A DNA stretch of 63,527 bases from Lactovum miscens (GTDB lineage Bacteria > Bacillota > Bacilli > Lactobacillales > Streptococcaceae): contig NZ_JACHHV010000008.1 of the NCBI RefSeq assembly GCF_014202895.1, positions 1 through 63,527 on the forward strand. Direction: 5' to 3'. Below the pieces are notes generated by a model. It worked only from the letters and a program-made list of their open reading frames with translations. It was not told the DNA's origin and made no database searches. The stretch's first letter is position 1; the number at the start of each line of letters is the position of its first letter. The translations under genes and the position numbers were made by a program. Shown here piece after piece: positions 10,490 through 18,954 of the stretch.

Positions 10490-10717
10490 ACTTGAAACCT
10501 TTCTTTAAAATTTGAAATATTAACAAGATATAACTATTTTTCTAATTTTTGAGTAAAATGGTAATAGATATAACAGCGTGAGTTACAGTTGATGTCCAAT
10601 TATAGCATGCTAGTTAGCTCAAAAATCTTAGATTTTGCGAGAAGAGAATGAAATGTGTTATAAGTATGGTTACTAAATTAAGCTTAGAAATTGTTCAAGA
10701 GCTTATTGGAGGGAAAG

Positions 10718-13351
10718 ATGCATCAAGGAAAATTAAGGATTTACTTTGGTTATGCCGCGGGTGTTGGAAAAACTTATGCTATGTTGCAAGGAGCCCAAGA
10801 AGCCAAGGCAAATGGAATTGAAGTTGTTCTAGGTTATATTGAGCCTCATGCCAGGCCAGAAACAAGCCAGTTGGCTTTAGGATTTGAGTCAATTTCGGCT
10901 AAAGAAATGACCTACAGAGGTTTAAGATTTTCTGAGTTTGATCTGGATGCCACTTTAAGGCGTAAACCTCAGTTGGTCTTAGTTGATGAATTGGCGCATA
11001 ATAACGTAACTGGCTCACGTAATAAGAAACGTTTCCAAGACATCGAAGAGTTATTACGTGCTGGGATTGATGTTTATACGACTTTGAATGTTCAACATAT
11101 TGAGAGCCTCATGGATCAAGTTCAACAAATTACGGATATTCAGGTCAATGAGAGAATTCCAGACTACGTTTTTAATGAGGCAGATCAAATCAAGCTGGTT
11201 GATATTGAGCCAGCCGATCTTTTGGAAAGGCTACACAAGGGAAAAATATATAACAAAGTCCAAGCTGAACGGGCTTTAAATAACTTCTTTACACTTGAAA
11301 AACTTTTTGCTCTCCGTGAAATTGCTTTGCTTAAAACGGCTGATCAGGTCAATAATTTGGCTAATAAGCAACAAGTTGATGCTAAAGTAGGCTTTGCCAA
11401 AGAACAGATTCTAGTTTGTGTCTCCTCCTCACCTTCTTCGCCAATTGTCATTCGAGCAGCAGTAAGATTAGCAGCCGCTTTTAAGGCTGAATTGACAGCC
11501 CTTTATGTGAGTGAAGAGGGCGATGAAAGTTTAAGCCATGAAGAGAGAAAAAGTTTACGACAGAACTTGAGACTGGCTGAGCAACTTGGAGCTAAAGTTT
11601 CAGTTGTCTATGGGACAGGGTTGGCTGAGCAAATTTCAGAATACGCAAAAACGAGTCATATTACGAAACTAGTCATTGGGAAAACACCTGAGAAACGTAA
11701 TTTTGGCGGGGTAAGCTTTATTGATAAGTTGGGACAATTGGCGCCAGAGCTGGATATTTATATTATTCCATATACTAAAGCTGGATACCAGAATTTTTCT
11801 AGAATAAGAAAGTTTCCCACAATTCACTTTACCTTTAGCGACCTTTTTAAGACGATTATGGTCTTATTTGCCTGTACTCTGGTTGGCCTGATTTTCGATT
11901 ATTGGAAGTTTAATGTTTCAAATATTATTACAATCTATATTTTGGGTGTACAGATCAACGCGGTAATCACTCGTGGGCGAATTTTCAGTGTAATTTCCTC
12001 AGTGTTATCTGTTCTTTGTTTTAACTATTTCTTTACTGTCCCTTATTTTTCATTCGAAGTCTTTAATAATAGCTATCCGGTGACCTTTGCCATCATGTTG
12101 ACAGCCGGGTTGATCACCTCGACCCTGATTAAGCGAATTCAAAATCAGGTAAAGATGAACGCAGAAAAATCTTACCGAACTGAACTCCTACTTCAAGCCA
12201 ATAAAGATTTACAAATTCCAGAGAGTGTTCCTGAAATTTTGAGTGCAACAGCTAGATCCCTTACTCATTTACTTGAGAAAGACGTGGTGGTTTATCCTGT
12301 TGAAAATGAAGTCTTGCAAAATGCGGTCTTTTTTCCAGCAACTCAGTCGAATCAAACTTTGGAAACTTATCAGCGTTTGAAGGAAAATGGTGTTGCCGAC
12401 TGGGTACTTCACAACAACAAAAGGGCTGGGGCAACAACCAATACTTTGTCTGCCTCAAAATATCTCTATCTCTCAGTTCGCCTCAAAAACAGAATTTTCG
12501 CCATTATTGGTGTTTCCATGCTAGATGGAAAAGAGATTGAACCCTTTGAAAAAAGTGTGTTTTTGTCTATTTTAGGTGAAGCAGGTCTAGCTCTTGAGAA
12601 AGAAGTTCTCCGCTCTGAGCAGCAACAAACAGTTATCGAAATGAAGCAAGAACAGCTGCGCGCCAATCTCTTGCGGGCTATTTCTCATGACTTACGAAGT
12701 CCTCTGACCAGTATCTCTGGAAATGCTAAACTATTGATGGAGAATCGCAATTCTTTCAATGAGCCAAGAAAGTTAGAGCTTTATTCTTATATTTATGACG
12801 ATTCCATGTGGCTGATTAGCTTAATTGAAAACCTTCTCGCTGTCACGAAATTAGAAAGTAATGTGGCTTTAAACCTTCAGGTTAATAGCATAGAAGAAGC
12901 TATTACTGAAGCCTTGAAACATGTGGACCGTCATATTAATGAACATCAGTTAAAAACAATTCTGTCGGATGAGGTACTTTTTGCTAAAATGGATAGTGCC
13001 TTGATTGTACAGGTGATTATTAATATCGTAAATAATGCAATTAAATATACGCCAAAAGGTTCAACAATTACATTGATGGCTGAAAGACTGAAAAACAGTA
13101 TTCAAGTAGAAATCGCTGATGATGGAGAGGGAATTTCAGATGTGGCTAAGACAAAGATTTTTGATCTCTTCTATACTGCTGATAAGAATCCAGACTCAAA
13201 ACGCGGACTTGGAATTGGTTTATCACTTTGTAAAACTATTATAAATTCACATAGTGGAGAGATTTATGTGAAGGATAATAAACCAAAAGGAACAATTATT
13301 GGTTTCAACTTGCCGCTAGTGGAGGTGGATATAAATGGCTGGAAAAGCTAA
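10718..13351 (+). CDS. kdpD: K+-sensing histidine kinase KdpD
   Basis: The 877-residue protein has the full KdpD plan. The N-terminal KdpD domain carries Walker A G-V-G-K-T near residue 17 and the LVDELAH segment. A universal-stress-protein domain follows (about residues 225-350), then four closely spaced membrane helices (about 370-490), a GAF-like region, a HisKA domain with phospho-acceptor H657 (AISHDLRSPL) and a HATPase_c domain. It senses K+ limitation and phosphorylates KdpE. ATG 10718 is preceded by GGAGGG. The last bases overlap kdpE, so the two are co-translated. Confidence 0.95.
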   Translation: MHQGKLRIYFGYAAGVGKTYAMLQGAQEAKANGIEVVLGYIEPHARPETSQLALGFESISAKEMTYRGLRFSEFDLDATLRRKPQLVLVDELAHNNVTGSRNKKRFQDIEELLRAGIDVYTTLNVQHIESLMDQVQQITDIQVNERIPDYVFNEADQIKLVDIEPADLLERLHKGKIYNKVQAERALNNFFTLEKLFALREIALLKTADQVNNLANKQQVDAKVGFAKEQILVCVSSSPSSPIVIRAAVRLAAAFKAELTALYVSEEGDESLSHEERKSLRQNLRLAEQLGAKVSVVYGTGLAEQISEYAKTSHITKLVIGKTPEKRNFGGVSFIDKLGQLAPELDIYIIPYTKAGYQNFSRIRKFPTIHFTFSDLFKTIMVLFACTLVGLIFDYWKFNVSNIITIYILGVQINAVITRGRIFSVISSVLSVLCFNYFFTVPYFSFEVFNNSYPVTFAIMLTAGLITSTLIKRIQNQVKMNAEKSYRTELLLQANKDLQIPESVPEILSATARSLTHLLEKDVVVYPVENEVLQNAVFFPATQSNQTLETYQRLKENGVADWVLHNNKRAGATTNTLSASKYLYLSVRLKNRIFAIIGVSMLDGKEIEPFEKSVFLSILGEAGLALEKEVLRSEQQQTVIEMKQEQLRANLLRAISHDLRSPLTSISGNAKLLMENRNSFNEPRKLELYSYIYDDSMWLISLIENLLAVTKLESNVALNLQVNSIEEAITEALKHVDRHINEHQLKTILSDEVLFAKMDSALIVQVIINIVNNAIKYTPKGSTITLMAERLKNSIQVEIADDGEGISDVAKTKIFDLFYTADKNPDSKRGLGIGLSLCKTIINSHSGEIYVKDNKPKGTIIGFNLPLVEVDINGWKS

Positions 13352-14042
13352 TATCATAATATGTGAAGATGATCCTTCAATCAATAAATTATTGAGTGTG
13401 ACAATGGAAGTCGAAGGCTACGATTATCGATCAACTAAAACCGGGAAACAATGTCTTCATGAAATTGTTTCTAAGTTACCAGACATTTTACTTCTAGACA
13501 TGGGGCTACCAGATATGGATGGAGTGGAAATTATTGAAAAGGTTCGTGGTTTTTCTAACCTCCCAATTATTGTGATTAGTGCACGTGGTGAAGATTCAGA
13601 CAAGATTCAGGCTCTTGATGCGGGAGCAGATGATTATTTGACCAAACCTTTCTCTACAGATGAACTATTGGCTCGCTTACGGGTCAATCAAAGAAGGCAA
13701 GAGAGATTTGGACAGATGTCACAGGTTGAAGAAGAGAGTCAAATCTTCGAAAATGGCTGGCTAAGGATTGATTTTGATGGTGGTTCCGTCTTCGTGCAAG
13801 ATAAAGAAATTCATCTGACACCGATTGAATATAAACTGCTTTGTCTTCTTGCTAACAATTTAAATCGAGTTTTGACTTATCACTTTATTACCAAGGAGAT
13901 TTGGGGCTACAACGATTATGATTTTGCAGCTCTGCGTGTTTTTGCGACAACTCTCCGCAAGAAAATTGAGATTGACCCCTCAAATCCACAATTGATTCAA
14001 ACTCATATCGGAGTTGGCTATCGTATGAACAGAATTGATTAA
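13335..14042 (+). CDS. kdpE: response regulator KdpE
   Basis: This is a 235-residue OmpR/PhoB-type regulator. The receiver domain has the acidic pair E-D-D near residue 12, phospho-acceptor D55 (LLLDMGLPD) and the conserved Lys of T-K-P-F. The C-terminal winged helix covers about residues 135-230. It starts inside the end of kdpD (17-bp overlap). Its likely target is the set of direct repeats before the kdpFABC genes at 14166-14215. The terminator after it separates the regulators from the structural genes. Confidence 0.95.
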   Translation: MAGKANIIICEDDPSINKLLSVTMEVEGYDYRSTKTGKQCLHEIVSKLPDILLLDMGLPDMDGVEIIEKVRGFSNLPIIVISARGEDSDKIQALDAGADDYLTKPFSTDELLARLRVNQRRQERFGQMSQVEEESQIFENGWLRIDFDGGSVFVQDKEIHLTPIEYKLLCLLANNLNRVLTYHFITKEIWGYNDYDFAALRVFATTLRKKIEIDPSNPQLIQTHIGVGYRMNRID

Positions 14043-14062
14043 ACAAAAAATTTAAATTTTGA

Positions 14063-14089
14063 GTACCATTTTTAAATGGTGCTTTTTTA
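14063..14089 (+). terminator. terminator after kdpE
   Basis: AGTACCATTT and AAATGGTGCT form a 10-bp stem with one G-U pair and a two-base apex, followed by TTTTT. Confidence 0.8.
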
Positions 14090-14165
14090 TTTCAGTTTGT
14101 GAAAATAAACTTCCTTCAAGGAGGCTGTAGACCATATAAAAAAGGTGAGAACGCCATGATCTGGA

Positions 14166-14231
14166 CTTTAATGGAATCTTAATATCCAACCCAAAATCTT
14201 AATACTTTCTTAATATTTTTTCTGTTAAAAT
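14166..14231 (+). promoter_or_regulatory. kdpFABC promoter with phased CTTAATA direct repeats
   Basis: CTTAATA occurs at 14178, 14198 and 14209, with a related CTTTAATG at 14166. The spacings of about 12, 20 and 11 bp keep them on one face of the helix. They end just upstream of an extended -10, TGTTAAAAT (14223-14231), which lacks a good -35. This is the layout expected for an OmpR-family activator, so it is the likely KdpE binding region. Confidence 0.6.
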
Positions 14232-14254
14232 GATTTTCCAATGGAGGAAGAAAA

Positions 14255-14353
14255 ATGATGGATTTCATAATGTTAATAAGTTTAATTGTCTGCGCTACCT
14301 TGTTGTTACTTTTGATTAATTGGTGTGATATGCAGATTAAAGAAGAAGGTTAG
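14255..14353 (+). CDS. small membrane protein preceding kdpF
   Basis: The 32-residue ORF starts at 14255 after GGAGGA and runs MMDFIMLISLIVC..., with one hydrophobic helix (about residues 4-22) ending in N-W-C-D and a charged tail. It is the first gene after the kdp promoter, 8 bp before kdpF. A short protein with a hydrophobic helix followed by a Cys-Asp/Glu pair occurs just before kdpF in other bacteria, to my recollection, but I know of no assigned function. It may be a second small Kdp accessory subunit. It could also be a leader peptide. Confidence 0.65.
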   Translation: MMDFIMLISLIVCATLLLLLINWCDMQIKEEG

Positions 14354-14361
14354 GTTTAAAA

Positions 14362-14445
14362 ATGATGTATGCAATTTTGGGAATTATTATTGTTTTGCTC
14401 GCAGCGTATTTAGTCTATGCACTGATTCATCCAGATAAATTTTAG
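14362..14445 (+). CDS. kdpF: KdpF, small stabilising subunit of the Kdp ATPase
   Basis: The 27-residue protein is a single membrane helix (MYAILGIIIVLLAAYLVYAL) followed by I-H-P-D-K-F. The YxxxALIxPxxF ending is the KdpF signature. It stabilises the KdpABC complex in the membrane. The stop overlaps the Shine-Dalgarno of kdpA (TAGGAGGAA), 8 bp before the kdpA ATG. A GTTTAAAA region lies before its own start, so its translation may depend on read-through from the small ORF upstream. Confidence 0.85.
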   Translation: MMYAILGIIIVLLAAYLVYALIHPDKF

Positions 14446-14453
14446 GAGGAAAT

Positions 14454-16178
14454 ATGTTACAAATTGTTCTGGTTATTGTCATTGGCGTCCTCTTCATGAT
14501 ACCAACAGGTAAATACCTTTATCATATCGCTACTGAACAACATACTTTTGCCGATCCTGTCTTTGATAAAATTGATGGATTTATTTATAAACTGATTAGC
14601 TTGAAAAAAATTAAAATGTCTTGGAAAAAATATGCTGTTGCTTTGGTTTTGACCAATTTTGCGATGGTTTTTATTGGCTACCTCATCTTGCGTATTCAAG
14701 CCCTTCCAATTTTTAATCCTAATCATATTGCTGGCATGGAGCCTTCACTTGGCTTTAACACTGTGATTTCATTTATTACGAACACTGACTTACAAGATTA
14801 CGCGGGTGAAACTGGGTTGTCTTATTTGAGCCAAATGGTTGTGATTACCTTTATGATGTTCACTTCAGCAGCATCTGGTTTTGCAGCGGCAATGGCCTTC
14901 ATCCGTGCCCTGTCTGGAAAGTTCTCAGATATGGGAAACTTCTACGTTGACTTTGTTAGAATTATCACCCGAGTTCTTTTACCTTTTTCAATTATCGGTG
15001 CTTTAATTCTTATCTCACAAGGTGTGCCCCAAACCCTGATGCATAACTTGACGGTTACAACGATTGAAGGAAAATTTCAAGATATCCCCATGGGACCTGT
15101 GGCCACACTTGAAATCATCAAACATTTAGGTACTAATGGCGGTGGTTTCTTTGGGGCCAACTCAGCCATGCCTTTTGAAAATCCAAGTGTCTTTACTAAC
15201 ATTATAGAAATGCTTTCAATGATGCTCTTACCTGGTTCAGTCCTCTTCGCCTTCGGTCACATGATGGTTGAAAATAAATTTGTAAAAAATCAAGGACTCA
15301 AGAATAAAAAAGAGAAGAAAATCTGGCTCGGACGCCAGGCGCGTCCTATTTTCATCGTGATGGCGATTCTATTTGTGCTTGGCTTGGCTGTGATTCTTTG
15401 GTCAGAATCGAAAGGAAATCCAATTTTGGCCCACCTTGGATTGAACCAATCAATGGGTAGCATGGAAGGCAAAGAAAGTCGCTTTGGTGTGAATATGTCT
15501 GGTTTGTTTACTGAAATCACTACCGCCTTTACGACAGGTTCTGTAAATAATATGCATGATACGCTGACACCATTGTCTGGTGGTATTGCTATGATCAACA
15601 TGATGTTAAATGTGGTCTTTGGTGGCAAGGGAGTGGGTCTCATGAACATGATCCTTTATGTTATCCTGAGCGTCTTCATCTGTGGACTCATGATTGGACG
15701 GACACCAGTTTATCTTGGCAAGAAGATTGAAGGCAAAGAAATGAAGTTGACCGCACTAGGAATCATCGTTCATCCCTTGATTATCTTAGCTTTCTCGGCT
15801 CTGGCTATTTCAGTCTCAGCTGGGCTTGCAGGGATCACAAACCCGGGCTTCCACGGTCTATCACAAGTAGTCTATCAATATGCCTCCTCTTCCGCCAATA
15901 ACGGTTCTGGGTTTGAAGGCATGAAAGATAATACAATCTTTTGGAATGTGACAACTGGCCTAGCAATGTTCTTTGGCCGTTATGTCACAATGATCATCCA
16001 ACTTGCGATTGCAGCTTCATTAATGGCAAAGCCAAAAGTAAATGAATCTTTAGGTACTCTGAAGACGGATACAGCTACATTTACTATTGTTCTCTTCGTC
16101 GTTGTTCTCGTGATTTCGGCTTTGACTTTCTTACCAGTGCTTGTCCTTGGCCCTATTTCTGAATTTTTAACTATGTGA
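14454..16178 (+). CDS. kdpA: K+-transporting ATPase subunit A
   Basis: The 574-residue polytopic membrane protein is the K+-selective channel-like subunit. It contains the selectivity-filter-type segments NTDLQDYAGE, GTNGGGFFGANSAMPFENP, and TTGSVNNMHDT, placed in four pore loops among about ten helices, as in other KdpA proteins of 550-580 residues. GGAGGAA lies before ATG 14454. It acts with KdpB, C and F for high-affinity K+ uptake. Confidence 0.97.
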   Translation: MLQIVLVIVIGVLFMIPTGKYLYHIATEQHTFADPVFDKIDGFIYKLISLKKIKMSWKKYAVALVLTNFAMVFIGYLILRIQALPIFNPNHIAGMEPSLGFNTVISFITNTDLQDYAGETGLSYLSQMVVITFMMFTSAASGFAAAMAFIRALSGKFSDMGNFYVDFVRIITRVLLPFSIIGALILISQGVPQTLMHNLTVTTIEGKFQDIPMGPVATLEIIKHLGTNGGGFFGANSAMPFENPSVFTNIIEMLSMMLLPGSVLFAFGHMMVENKFVKNQGLKNKKEKKIWLGRQARPIFIVMAILFVLGLAVILWSESKGNPILAHLGLNQSMGSMEGKESRFGVNMSGLFTEITTAFTTGSVNNMHDTLTPLSGGIAMINMMLNVVFGGKGVGLMNMILYVILSVFICGLMIGRTPVYLGKKIEGKEMKLTALGIIVHPLIILAFSALAISVSAGLAGITNPGFHGLSQVVYQYASSSANNGSGFEGMKDNTIFWNVTTGLAMFFGRYVTMIIQLAIAASLMAKPKVNESLGTLKTDTATFTIVLFVVVLVISALTFLPVLVLGPISEFLTM

Positions 16179-16189
16179 GGGTGTGAGTT

Positions 16190-18319
16190 ATGCGTACAAA
16201 TAATAAAAAAATGTTGAATCAGAAGATTCTTCAAAGCTCTTTAAAAGGGGCGATTTTAAAACTAAATCCAGCTTACATGATTAAAAATCCAGTTATGTTC
16301 GTCGTGGAAGTCGGTTTTCTGATTACCTTAGTCTTATCTATTTTCCCAGCTCTCTTTGGTCCAGTAGCCACTTCAATCCGAATTTACAATATTATTGTAA
16401 CTATGATTTTGCTCTTGACCATTCTCTTTGCTAACTTTGCCGAGTCGATCGCGGAAGGTCGTGGGAAAGCTCAAGCCGAAAGCTTGAAAAAAACTCAAAA
16501 GAGTATGACAGCACGCTTGGTCGAATCAGCCAACGTTAAACCATCTGATATCAAAGTGCTTATGTCAGTTCAAGATTTTGCGAATGATTTAGAACTGAAA
16601 CATCAGAATGAGGAGGGCCGCATCATTGATGCTTCCGACTTGAAAAAAGGTGACGTTGTTCTTGTAAAAGCTGGTGAATTGATTCCAAATGATGGTGAGG
16701 TTGTCGAAGGTATTGCCTCAGTTGATGAGTCAGCCATTACTGGTGAATCTGCTCCTGTCATCAAAGAATCAGGAGGTGACTTTGCCTCAGTGACTGGTGG
16801 TACAACGGTTTCCAGTGACTGGTTGAAAATTAAAATCACTTCAAATGCTGGTGAATCCTTCTTGGATAAAATGATTTCACTGGTTGAAGGTGCTTCTCGT
16901 AAAAAAACTCCGAACGAAATTGCCTTGAATACTTTGTTGGTAAGCTTAACCATTATTTTCTTGATTGTTATCGTGACCCTTTATCCAATTGCGGCTTATG
17001 TGCATGTACAATTAGCCGTTCCAACTTTAATTGCTCTGACCGTCTGTTTGATTCCAACTACGATTGGTGGACTCTTGTCCGCTATTGGCATTGCCGGTAT
17101 GGATCGTGTCACTCGCTTTAATGTGATTGCTATGTCAGGTAAAGCGGTGGAAGCTTCTGGTGACGTTGATACCATGATTCTTGATAAAACAGGTACGATT
17201 ACTTATGGTAACCGCATGGCGGCTAAGTTTCAGTCTGTTTCAGGTGTGGATATTTCAGAATTGATTGATAATGCAGTTTTAACTTCATTACAAGATGAAA
17301 CGCCTGAAGGTAAATCAATTGTCAAACTCGCCAATGAAGAACGGGGAGAGGGAGGCGAGATTCCAGAAGCCATGAACTTTGTTGAGTTTACTGCTCAAAC
17401 TCGTATGAGTGGTGTTGATTTAAATAATGGCACAGTTATCCGTAAGGGAGCCACTGATGCAATCATCGCCCATATCGAAAAGCTTGGCGGACATATTCCA
17501 ACAGATCTCAAGGCAATTACTGACGAGATTTCATCTGTTGGCGGTACGCCATTGACAGTGACACGTAATGAAAAAATTCTTGGGGTTATTTATCTAAAAG
17601 ATACAATTAAACCTGGTCTGGTTATTCGATTCGCTCGTCTCCGTGAGATGGGGATTAAAACCATTATGTGCACGGGTGATAATCCTTTGACAGCTGCAAC
17701 GATCGCTCAAGAAGCTGGAGTGGATAGCTTTATCGCAGAATGCAAACCAGAAGATAAGATTATTGCGATTAAAAAAGAACAAGCCCAAGGTAAAGTTGTG
17801 GCTATGACAGGTGATGGCACCAATGATGCCCCTGCTCTTGCTCAAGCCGATGTCGGTATCGCTATGAACTCCGGTACTAGCGCAGCTAAGGAGGCTGCCA
17901 ATATGGTCGATCTTGACTCTGATCCAACTAAGATTCTTGATATTGTTGAGATTGGTAAACAACTCTTGATTACACGTGGTGCTTTAACCACTTTCTCAAT
18001 TGCCAATGATATTGCAAAATATTTTGCAATTATTCCAGCCATGTTTATGTTGGCCATTCCTCAGATAAAGATTTTGAATGTTATGGGTTTAGCAACTCCT
18101 TCAAGTGCAATTTTGTCAGCTCTGATCTTTAACGCCATCATCATTCCAATCTTAATTCCACTTGCTATGAAAGGTGTGAAGTACAAACCTCAACGTTCAG
18201 AAAAAATGTTGGCGCATAATATGTTGGTTTACGGATTGGGTGGTGTGATTGCCCCGTTTATAGGTATCAAGTTTATTGACCTTGTGATTGCGCCATTATT
18301 GCATGTGATTGGCTTGTAA
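16190..18319 (+). CDS. kdpB: K+-transporting P-type ATPase subunit B
   Basis: This is the 709-residue catalytic subunit. The phosphorylated aspartate is D332 in LDKTGTIT, the actuator motif is TGES (in AITGESAP), the hinge motif is GDGTND, and the membrane residues expected for KdpB are present (LIPTTIGGL). GAGGG at the end of kdpA lies 7 nt before ATG 16190. The first about 25 residues are basic and slightly longer than in many homologues. It hydrolyses ATP to drive K+ through KdpA. Confidence 0.97.
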
Positions 18320-18327
18320 AAGGAGAA

Positions 18328-18954
18328 ATGATGAAAAAGTTACTATTTGAATTAAAAACCCCATTTTTGATTACTATCGTCTTTATCGTAATCTGTGGTC
18401 TCTTTTACCCTTTACTTATGACGGGTTTAGGACAAGCAATTTTTCCGTCACAATCAAATGGTAGTTTGATTAAGGTTGATGGTAAAGTAGTGGGTTCAAG
18501 CTTGATTGGTCAGAAATTTACTGATGTGCGCTTTATGAAGGCACGTCCTTCAGCGGTTAACTACAATACTTACACAATAGCTGATAAGGCCAATGGAATT
18601 TATACAAGTGTGGCTACAGGCTCTGCCAATTTATCACCAAGTAACCCTACACTTAAGGTACGTGTAGAGTCAGACTTGAAGACCTTCTTAAAAGCCAATC
18701 CAACAGTCTCGCCTAAAGCCATTCCGGATGATCTTTTGACGGCTTCTGGATCGGGACTTGATCCTCAAATCAGCCCTACCAGCGCCGAGATTCAAGTTCC
18801 AGCATTATCTGAAGCAACAGGGTTGAGTAAAGCTGATTTGAATAAGATGATTCAAAAGAATACGCAACAAAAGTTATTTGGCTTCATTGGAGAAAATACC
18901 GTCAATGTACTTGGAGTCAATATTGACATTGCCAAAGCACTTGGCCTAAATTAA
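18328..18954 (+). CDS. kdpC: K+-transporting ATPase subunit C
   Basis: The 208-residue protein has one N-terminal membrane helix (about residues 11-33) and an extracytoplasmic domain. Typical KdpC segments are present: RFMKARPSAVNYN, a serine/proline-rich loop, and the SGSGLDPQISP motif. It is thought to stabilise or assist ligand binding of the complex. GGAGAA precedes two tandem ATGs; 18328 is used, and 18331 is equally possible. It is the last gene of the operon, with a terminator-like hairpin after it. Confidence 0.95.
   Translation: MMKKLLFELKTPFLITIVFIVICGLFYPLLMTGLGQAIFPSQSNGSLIKVDGKVVGSSLIGQKFTDVRFMKARPSAVNYNTYTIADKANGIYTSVATGSANLSPSNPTLKVRVESDLKTFLKANPTVSPKAIPDDLLTASGSGLDPQISPTSAEIQVPALSEATGLSKADLNKMIQKNTQQKLFGFIGENTVNVLGVNIDIAKALGLN

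Follow-up and report, generated by a model that had tools for sequence, protein, structure and literature searches.

The kdp locus of Lactovum miscens

The window, by which we mean the whole stretch of 63,527 nucleotides of Lactovum miscens DNA that was analysed, carries the genes of the Kdp pump together with those of its sensor kinase and response regulator, all on the forward strand.

10691-13351 (+): kdpD, full-length sensor kinase (KdpD, Usp, DUF4118, HisKA and HATPase domains)
13335-14042 (+): kdpE, response regulator (domain matches)
14061-14084 (+): terminator-like hairpin with T tract, 3′ of kdpE
14166-14215 (+): four CTTTAAT/CTTAATA half-sites, starting at 14166, 14178, 14198 and 14209; probable KdpE sites
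14223-14231 (+): extended −10-like element TGTTAAAAT, read by eye from 11 aligned Streptococcaceae upstream regions
14243-14247 (+): Shine-Dalgarno sequence GGAGG of the 32-residue gene, from sequence, with a 7-nt spacer
14255-14353 (+): gene for a KdpZ-like 32-residue protein, probably single-span membrane (open reading frame, conservation, selection, AlphaFold2)
14362-14445 (+): kdpF, 27 residues (PF09604, 1e-8; TIGR02115, 4e-10)
14454-16178 (+): kdpA (PF03814, 9e-222)
16190-18319 (+): kdpB (E1-E2 ATPase and HAD hydrolase domains)
18328-18954 (+): kdpC (PF02669, 1e-64)

Immediately ahead of kdpF sits an open reading frame with an ATG start and a TAG stop, whose product is MMDFIMLISLIVCATLLLLLINWCDMQIKEEG; in this analysis we name the gene kdpZ and its product KdpZ, or Z. 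A reading made from the sequence alone had proposed it as the first gene of the kdp operon, with a strong ribosome site and 8 bp from kdpF, and all three points hold: GGAGG lies 7 nt ahead of the ATG, the frame ends at 14353 and kdpF starts at 14362, leaving a gap of 8 nt, and a terminator-like hairpin intervenes between kdpE and the frame. Since that hairpin parts the upstream, same-strand kdpDE genes from the frame, it is kdpZ that opens the kdpF-A-B-C unit. The likely ribosome site of kdpF falls within the final codons of kdpZ. Of the five genomes of the genus (G000-G004), only that of the window has kdpA, so the cluster is patchy and was either gained in this lineage or lost from its congeners.

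The region just 5′ of the frame is also conserved. When 11 upstream regions from Streptococcaceae are aligned and read by eye, a TG-n-TA-n-AAT element is seen to be kept directly 5′ of the frame, and repeated CTT(T/A)AT half-sites are likewise present in the relatives. Together these form a putative promoter with candidate KdpE sites, and the −10-like element would place a transcription start just ahead of kdpZ. A sigma-70 consensus scan reported no promoter on the + strand, this element included, and an Rfam search of the region returned a single chance-level match (E 0.65), far below gathering.

Coding selection on a 32-residue frame

Short frames arise readily by chance, and as a control the 319-base interval from kdpE to kdpF (14043-14361) was dinucleotide-shuffled 2000 times. 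Some frame of 26-49 residues appears in 70% of these shuffles, an equally hydrophobic one in 0.5%, and a hydrophobic frame preceded by a Shine-Dalgarno match of at least 5 bases in 0/2000. AlphaFold2 models the 32-residue protein as a single helix across residues 2-31, with a mean pLDDT of 93.8. The earlier description of a helix ending in N-W-C-D applies to the hydrophobic part, which does end at N22-W23-C24-D25; the protein itself continues with MQIKEEG, so the motif closes the hydrophobic part of the helix rather than the protein.

Purifying selection acts on kdpZ in the coding frame only. For the form of the gene found in Bacillota, the coding frame has a pN/pS of 0.196 (23 independent pairs), against 0.895 (22 pairs) and 1.505 (23 pairs) in the other two; for the form found elsewhere, the corresponding values are 0.363 (15 pairs), 1.008 (15 pairs) and 1.625 (14 pairs). 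In the first alignment, of 87 homologues, all 87 keep D3; M6 is kept in 82, C24 in 79 and Q27 in 77, and position 23 is W in 74 and F in 10. The cysteine is not universal, being present in 79/87 of the Bacillota set and 50/86 of the other. Shine-Dalgarno matches of at least 5 bases precede 135 of 182 called Z starts, as opposed to approximately 2.5% of 1403 internal kdpA ATGs. The C-terminal tail is richer in K/R than the N-terminal tail in 176 of the 182 peptides, and the reverse is seen in none; this basic C-terminal tail makes an N-out/C-in topology likely. Because of its conservation and codon-level selection, far beyond chance, the comparison of sequences gives good support to the conclusion that the frame is a genuine, conserved gene under coding selection.

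One family, distinct from KdpF

Outside Bacillota the peptide takes a divergent form that begins M-x-D, has one helix and often carries A-C-[DE]-R-[LI]. Profiles of the two forms align end to end (hhalign probability 94.5%, score 34.2), although 22 seeds of the non-Bacillota profile were selected visually, and this could have favoured the likeness. Column shuffles of that profile reached 34.2 in 0/200 cases, with a maximum of 16.5, and the reversed profile scored 9.6. The suggestion in the sequence-only reading that a similar small protein precedes kdpF in unrelated bacteria is borne out, with a (W/A)-C-(D/E/Q) ending recurring there.

Existing libraries do not capture this family: Pfam, NCBIfam and the PDB yielded no matching entry. 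The curated KdpF models (PF09604/TIGR02115) matched neither the 32-residue frame, the other Z peptides scanned nor the 37 members of one Z set (A2), in contrast to the true kdpF of the window next door, which they match at 1e-8 and 4e-10. Comparison of Z with KdpF by hhalign gave 7.8% for the Bacillota form and 9.3% or 5.5% for the other form, and hence no homology. Paralogy of Z and KdpF, prompted by their tails (C-E-R-L and P-E-K-F, respectively), is unsupported at profile probabilities of 5-9%. Escherichia coli ybfA, which lies beside kdpF in K-12, was likewise considered and set aside; at 207 nt it exceeds Z in length, and it is encoded on the other strand.

Distribution of kdpZ

Z is more widespread than the sequence-only reading had guessed. 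Among public kdp loci whose KdpA is 59-78% identical to that of the window, a Z homologue lies 5′ of kdpF in 76 of 80; these are the best 80 of 243 by KdpA likeness to the window and not a random sample, and the four exceptions are L040, L053, L082 and L090. The carriers among these best 80 include lactic acid bacteria, Clostridia, Pectinatus and Erysipelotrichia-type loci, in the last of which the cysteine is often replaced, as well as two Pasteurellaceae (Spirabiliibacterium) and one Mailhella MAG. The Pasteurellaceae loci (L067, L072) combine Z with a Bacillota-like KdpA. Closer to home, conservation in near relatives had been proposed as a check, and once run it came out in the gene's favour: across 328 Streptococcaceae genomes, strong profile matches (E≤2.5e-8) fall in exactly the 11 that bear kdpA and in no other, each starting approximately 195-205 bases 5′ of kdpA, with the next-best match at E 0.0037.

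Broader sampling gives a more mixed picture. An even draw of 398 Bacillota genomes gave a called Z in 14 of 50 usable kdp loci, a count that leaves out the window itself, five fragmentary KdpA matches and a further five that fell below cut-off. Z was called in 67 of 106 Pseudomonadota loci, from which G731, already present as L067, and five matches that were fragments or secondary (three of them in G819 and one each in G847 and G1002) had been removed, and in 8 of 16 Desulfobacterota loci, less three small fragments and G732, already present as L077. The divergent form also occurs at the same place in Deinococcus and Actinomycetota. Named plasmid records carry a called Z in L094-L096, L098 and L150-L155, and not in L097 or L149. 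Eleven further records, counted separately, comprise six with Z (Phenylobacterium, Streptomyces, Rhodococcus, D. radiodurans, S. meliloti and R. johnstonii, the Streptomyces call being weak at only 10.4 bits) and five in which none was called (Synechocystis, Enterococcus raffinosus, Lactiplantibacillus, Halobacterium and Listeria monocytogenes). Among the kdp loci examined, Z is missing from E. coli K-12, Pseudomonas-type loci and staphylococci.

Overall, 182 of the 272 kdpA loci yielded a called Z, 179 of them with kdpF and 3 without a called kdpF; of those without a called Z, 75 have kdpF only and 15 have neither. Copies of the window (L001-L003) and duplicates (L006, L009, L012, L013) are excluded from the 272. 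Gene order in the 179 loci is Z-F-A in 176 and F-Z-A in 3, and the median gap is 14 nt. The cut-off for a call was 9 bits and the best of 25,628 background segments reached 14.3 bits with one profile and 10.8 with the other, so the counts admit a few weak calls, of which L138, L201, L249 and L252 are examples that need care. The profiles were seeded from loci later counted, making the calls on those loci in-sample; conversely, sub-threshold candidates seen by eye (e.g., L132, L243, L251, L259 and L265) are left uncounted.

Individual loci show further peculiarities. Z is present with kdpF uncalled in L041 and L073, and the stop of Z in L041 lies immediately 5′ of kdpA. The 81-residue "hypothetical protein" WP_069456632.1 of S. 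alkalisoli ends at the stop codon of Z, so that annotation sometimes places the start of Z too far upstream. Two Erysipelotrichia-type loci, L066 (−481 to 0 of kdpA) and L092 (−444 to 0), have a frame of about 135-142 residues between kdpF and kdpA that looks TPR-like by eye, and L093 has the same kdpZ-kdpF spacing. Three Pseudomonadota loci (L179, L183, L203) have a third small hydrophobic frame between kdpF and kdpA, of 29-31 residues, ending near LLPA and located about −124 to −28 of kdpA. In Listeria innocua plasmid pLI100, kdpB and kdpC are separated by the gene of a "hypothetical protein" (L094, 6795-7133), possibly comparable to kdpX of Clostridium acetobutylicum.

A candidate accessory subunit of the Kdp pump

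What might such a peptide do? We think it probable that KdpZ is a genuine single-span membrane peptide that serves the Kdp pump as an accessory subunit, the subunit role being what we infer from its associations. This interpretation is favoured because Z accompanies kdpF and kdpA, depends on its amino acid sequence and occurs with short forms of KdpD. Z presence shows 15 changes on a phylogeny of 206 KdpA proteins built with FastTree, whereas 1000 shuffles of the labels gave a mean of 49.4 changes and a minimum of 41; Z is thus inherited with its pump rather than randomly scattered, although shared ancestry alone could give much of this signal. Proline in the KdpF tail, found in 178/185 loci with Z and 21/79 without, was considered as a sign of co-evolution and set aside, as only about 3 of 12 independent pairs are informative (p 0.25) and the association is not significant given ancestry. 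A core role is disfavoured by E. coli K-12, which is among the 75 of 272 loci with kdpF and no called Z: KdpFABC of E. coli works without Z, which is therefore not a core part of the pump.

Z might instead partner the sensor kinase, as a membrane regulator of KdpD that provides feedback on kdp expression, much as MgrB does for PhoQ. There are precedents for small single-span proteins that act on sensor kinases, and in the window a full-length kdpDE lies directly upstream of Z. KdpD is also found in 54 of 55 genomes, all of them picked for Z-bearing kdp loci; at that frequency co-occurrence fails as a discriminator, and only genomes with a short KdpD are informative. In five such genomes (G708, G512, G579, G566 and G632) above-cut-off KdpD occurs only in frames of 368-391 residues, leaving no room for a membrane sensor plus kinase core as judged solely by frame length, yet Z is called at 29, 29, 23, 19 and a weak 12 bits, respectively. 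A membrane KdpD does not, then, accompany Z everywhere, these genomes agree better with a pump partner than with a sensor partner, and we regard regulation of KdpD as unlikely. Separately, the KdpD match of one Streptococcaceae genome (G027:C1:1718175-1718803) is broken by an in-frame TGA.

Alternatively, the act of translating Z could be what matters, with a leader peptide or coupling frame controlling translation of kdpF or Rho-dependent termination. Z is the first frame of the unit and its 3′ end overlaps the likely kdpF ribosome site, and two papers take the same spot to be a 5′ UTR, a structured one in Caulobacter (PMC8552747) and one of 120 nt in M. smegmatis (PMC5401905). Amino acid conservation along the helix across phyla, the three F-Z-A loci, in which Z does not come ahead of kdpF, the three loci where Z but no kdpF was called, and the lack of an RNA family of note in Rfam argue against this explanation, which we consider quite unlikely. 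Equally, Z might steer degradation or quality control of Kdp subunits, or have another membrane role that needs only co-expression with kdp. Its size class and operon logic recall those of MgtR-type peptides, and MgtR is reported to promote degradation of MgtC (PMC6813294); near-constant linkage to kdpF and kdpA fits a subunit as well, and a degradation role seems to us improbable. That Z is a chance hydrophobic frame and no gene is hardly conceivable: short frames are common, as the shuffles illustrate, but none of the 2000 combined the hydrophobicity with the ribosome site, and frame-specific purifying selection, along with conservation in 76 of the best 80 of 243 loci, already refutes it.

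If KdpZ is an accessory subunit, a plausible sequence of events can be outlined. Transcription from a putative KdpE-responsive promoter just 5′ would lead to kdpZ being translated first, coupled to kdpF, and KdpZ would insert beside KdpF, KdpA and KdpB as a fifth, accessory component. There it may stabilise or tune the pump, by analogy with KdpF in E. coli. The near-invariant N-terminal Asp would face outward, and the W-C-x-x-Q or A-C-E-R-L tail would lie at the cytoplasmic face of the membrane.

A broader and more tentative proposal, which we hold at somewhat less than even confidence, is that most Kdp pumps outside E. coli-like lineages are five-part KdpZ-F-A-B-C complexes. The fifth part would have escaped notice because kdpZ-less E. 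coli is the source of the structures and the biochemistry, and because gene finders skip frames of 26-33 residues. By sequence, none of the solved structures in the PDB contains a relative of Z, and the solved KdpA chains comprise three near-identical sequences, which we take to be those of E. coli. Kdp is a standard model for K+ pumping and P-type ATPase coupling whose mechanism derives nearly entirely from E. coli KdpFABC. If a second small subunit were conserved in five phyla, "the complex" would mean something different for many bacteria, and a clear genetic test would be on offer.

Earlier sightings and comparison with known systems

The gene had been thought overlooked, which is right insofar as no Pfam, NCBIfam or PDB family covers it, and needs amending insofar as a kdpZYABCXDE arrangement in C. 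acetobutylicum, on a single transcript, is cited from 1997 (Treuner-Lange, Kuhn & Duerre, J Bacteriol 179:4501, as cited in PMC5401905). Z was thus first sighted long ago, and none of the libraries searched has a name for the family. Neither did the literature searched, which lay mostly outside subscription journals, contain a paper on the family as a whole. The 1997 study reportedly found that orfZ and orfY encode hydrophobic peptides, and a kdpZFABCN arrangement is said to have been described in A. acidocaldarius (Schleussinger, 2006).

Published leaders may also conceal the gene. The respective papers describe an approximately 100-nt 5′ UTR of Caulobacter kdpF, predicted to be highly structured (PMC8552747), and a 5′ UTR of 120 nt for M. 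smegmatis kdp (PMC5401905). Z occurs at the matching spot in Phenylobacterium, a relative of Caulobacter, and in Rhodococcus, of the same order as M. smegmatis, so both leaders probably contain a predicted kdpZ, judging from these relatives. Regions published as kdp 5′ UTRs may therefore be coding, and were the five-part proposal true, these "structured 5′ UTRs" would be kdpZ coding sequence.

Among known systems, CydX, AcrZ, MgrB and MgtR resemble Z as tiny single-helix proteins that reside with, or act on, a larger membrane complex; this is a general analogy, and no sequence relation was found. The working analogy is KdpF, described as a single transmembrane helix that stabilises the complex (PMC8385062). 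Like Z, it has about 25-30 residues and one helix and is encoded in the same operon (PF09604/TIGR02115); it differs in its non-homologous profile, which makes "like KdpF" an analogy, and in that both are present together in 179 loci. Closest in arrangement is C. acetobutylicum kdpZ (orfZ), likened to the frame in the window by gene order alone and with kdpY presumed to be KdpF-like: by the order cited in PMC5401905, there too an extra small frame lies ahead of the gene preceding kdpA, within a transcript made under K+ limitation.
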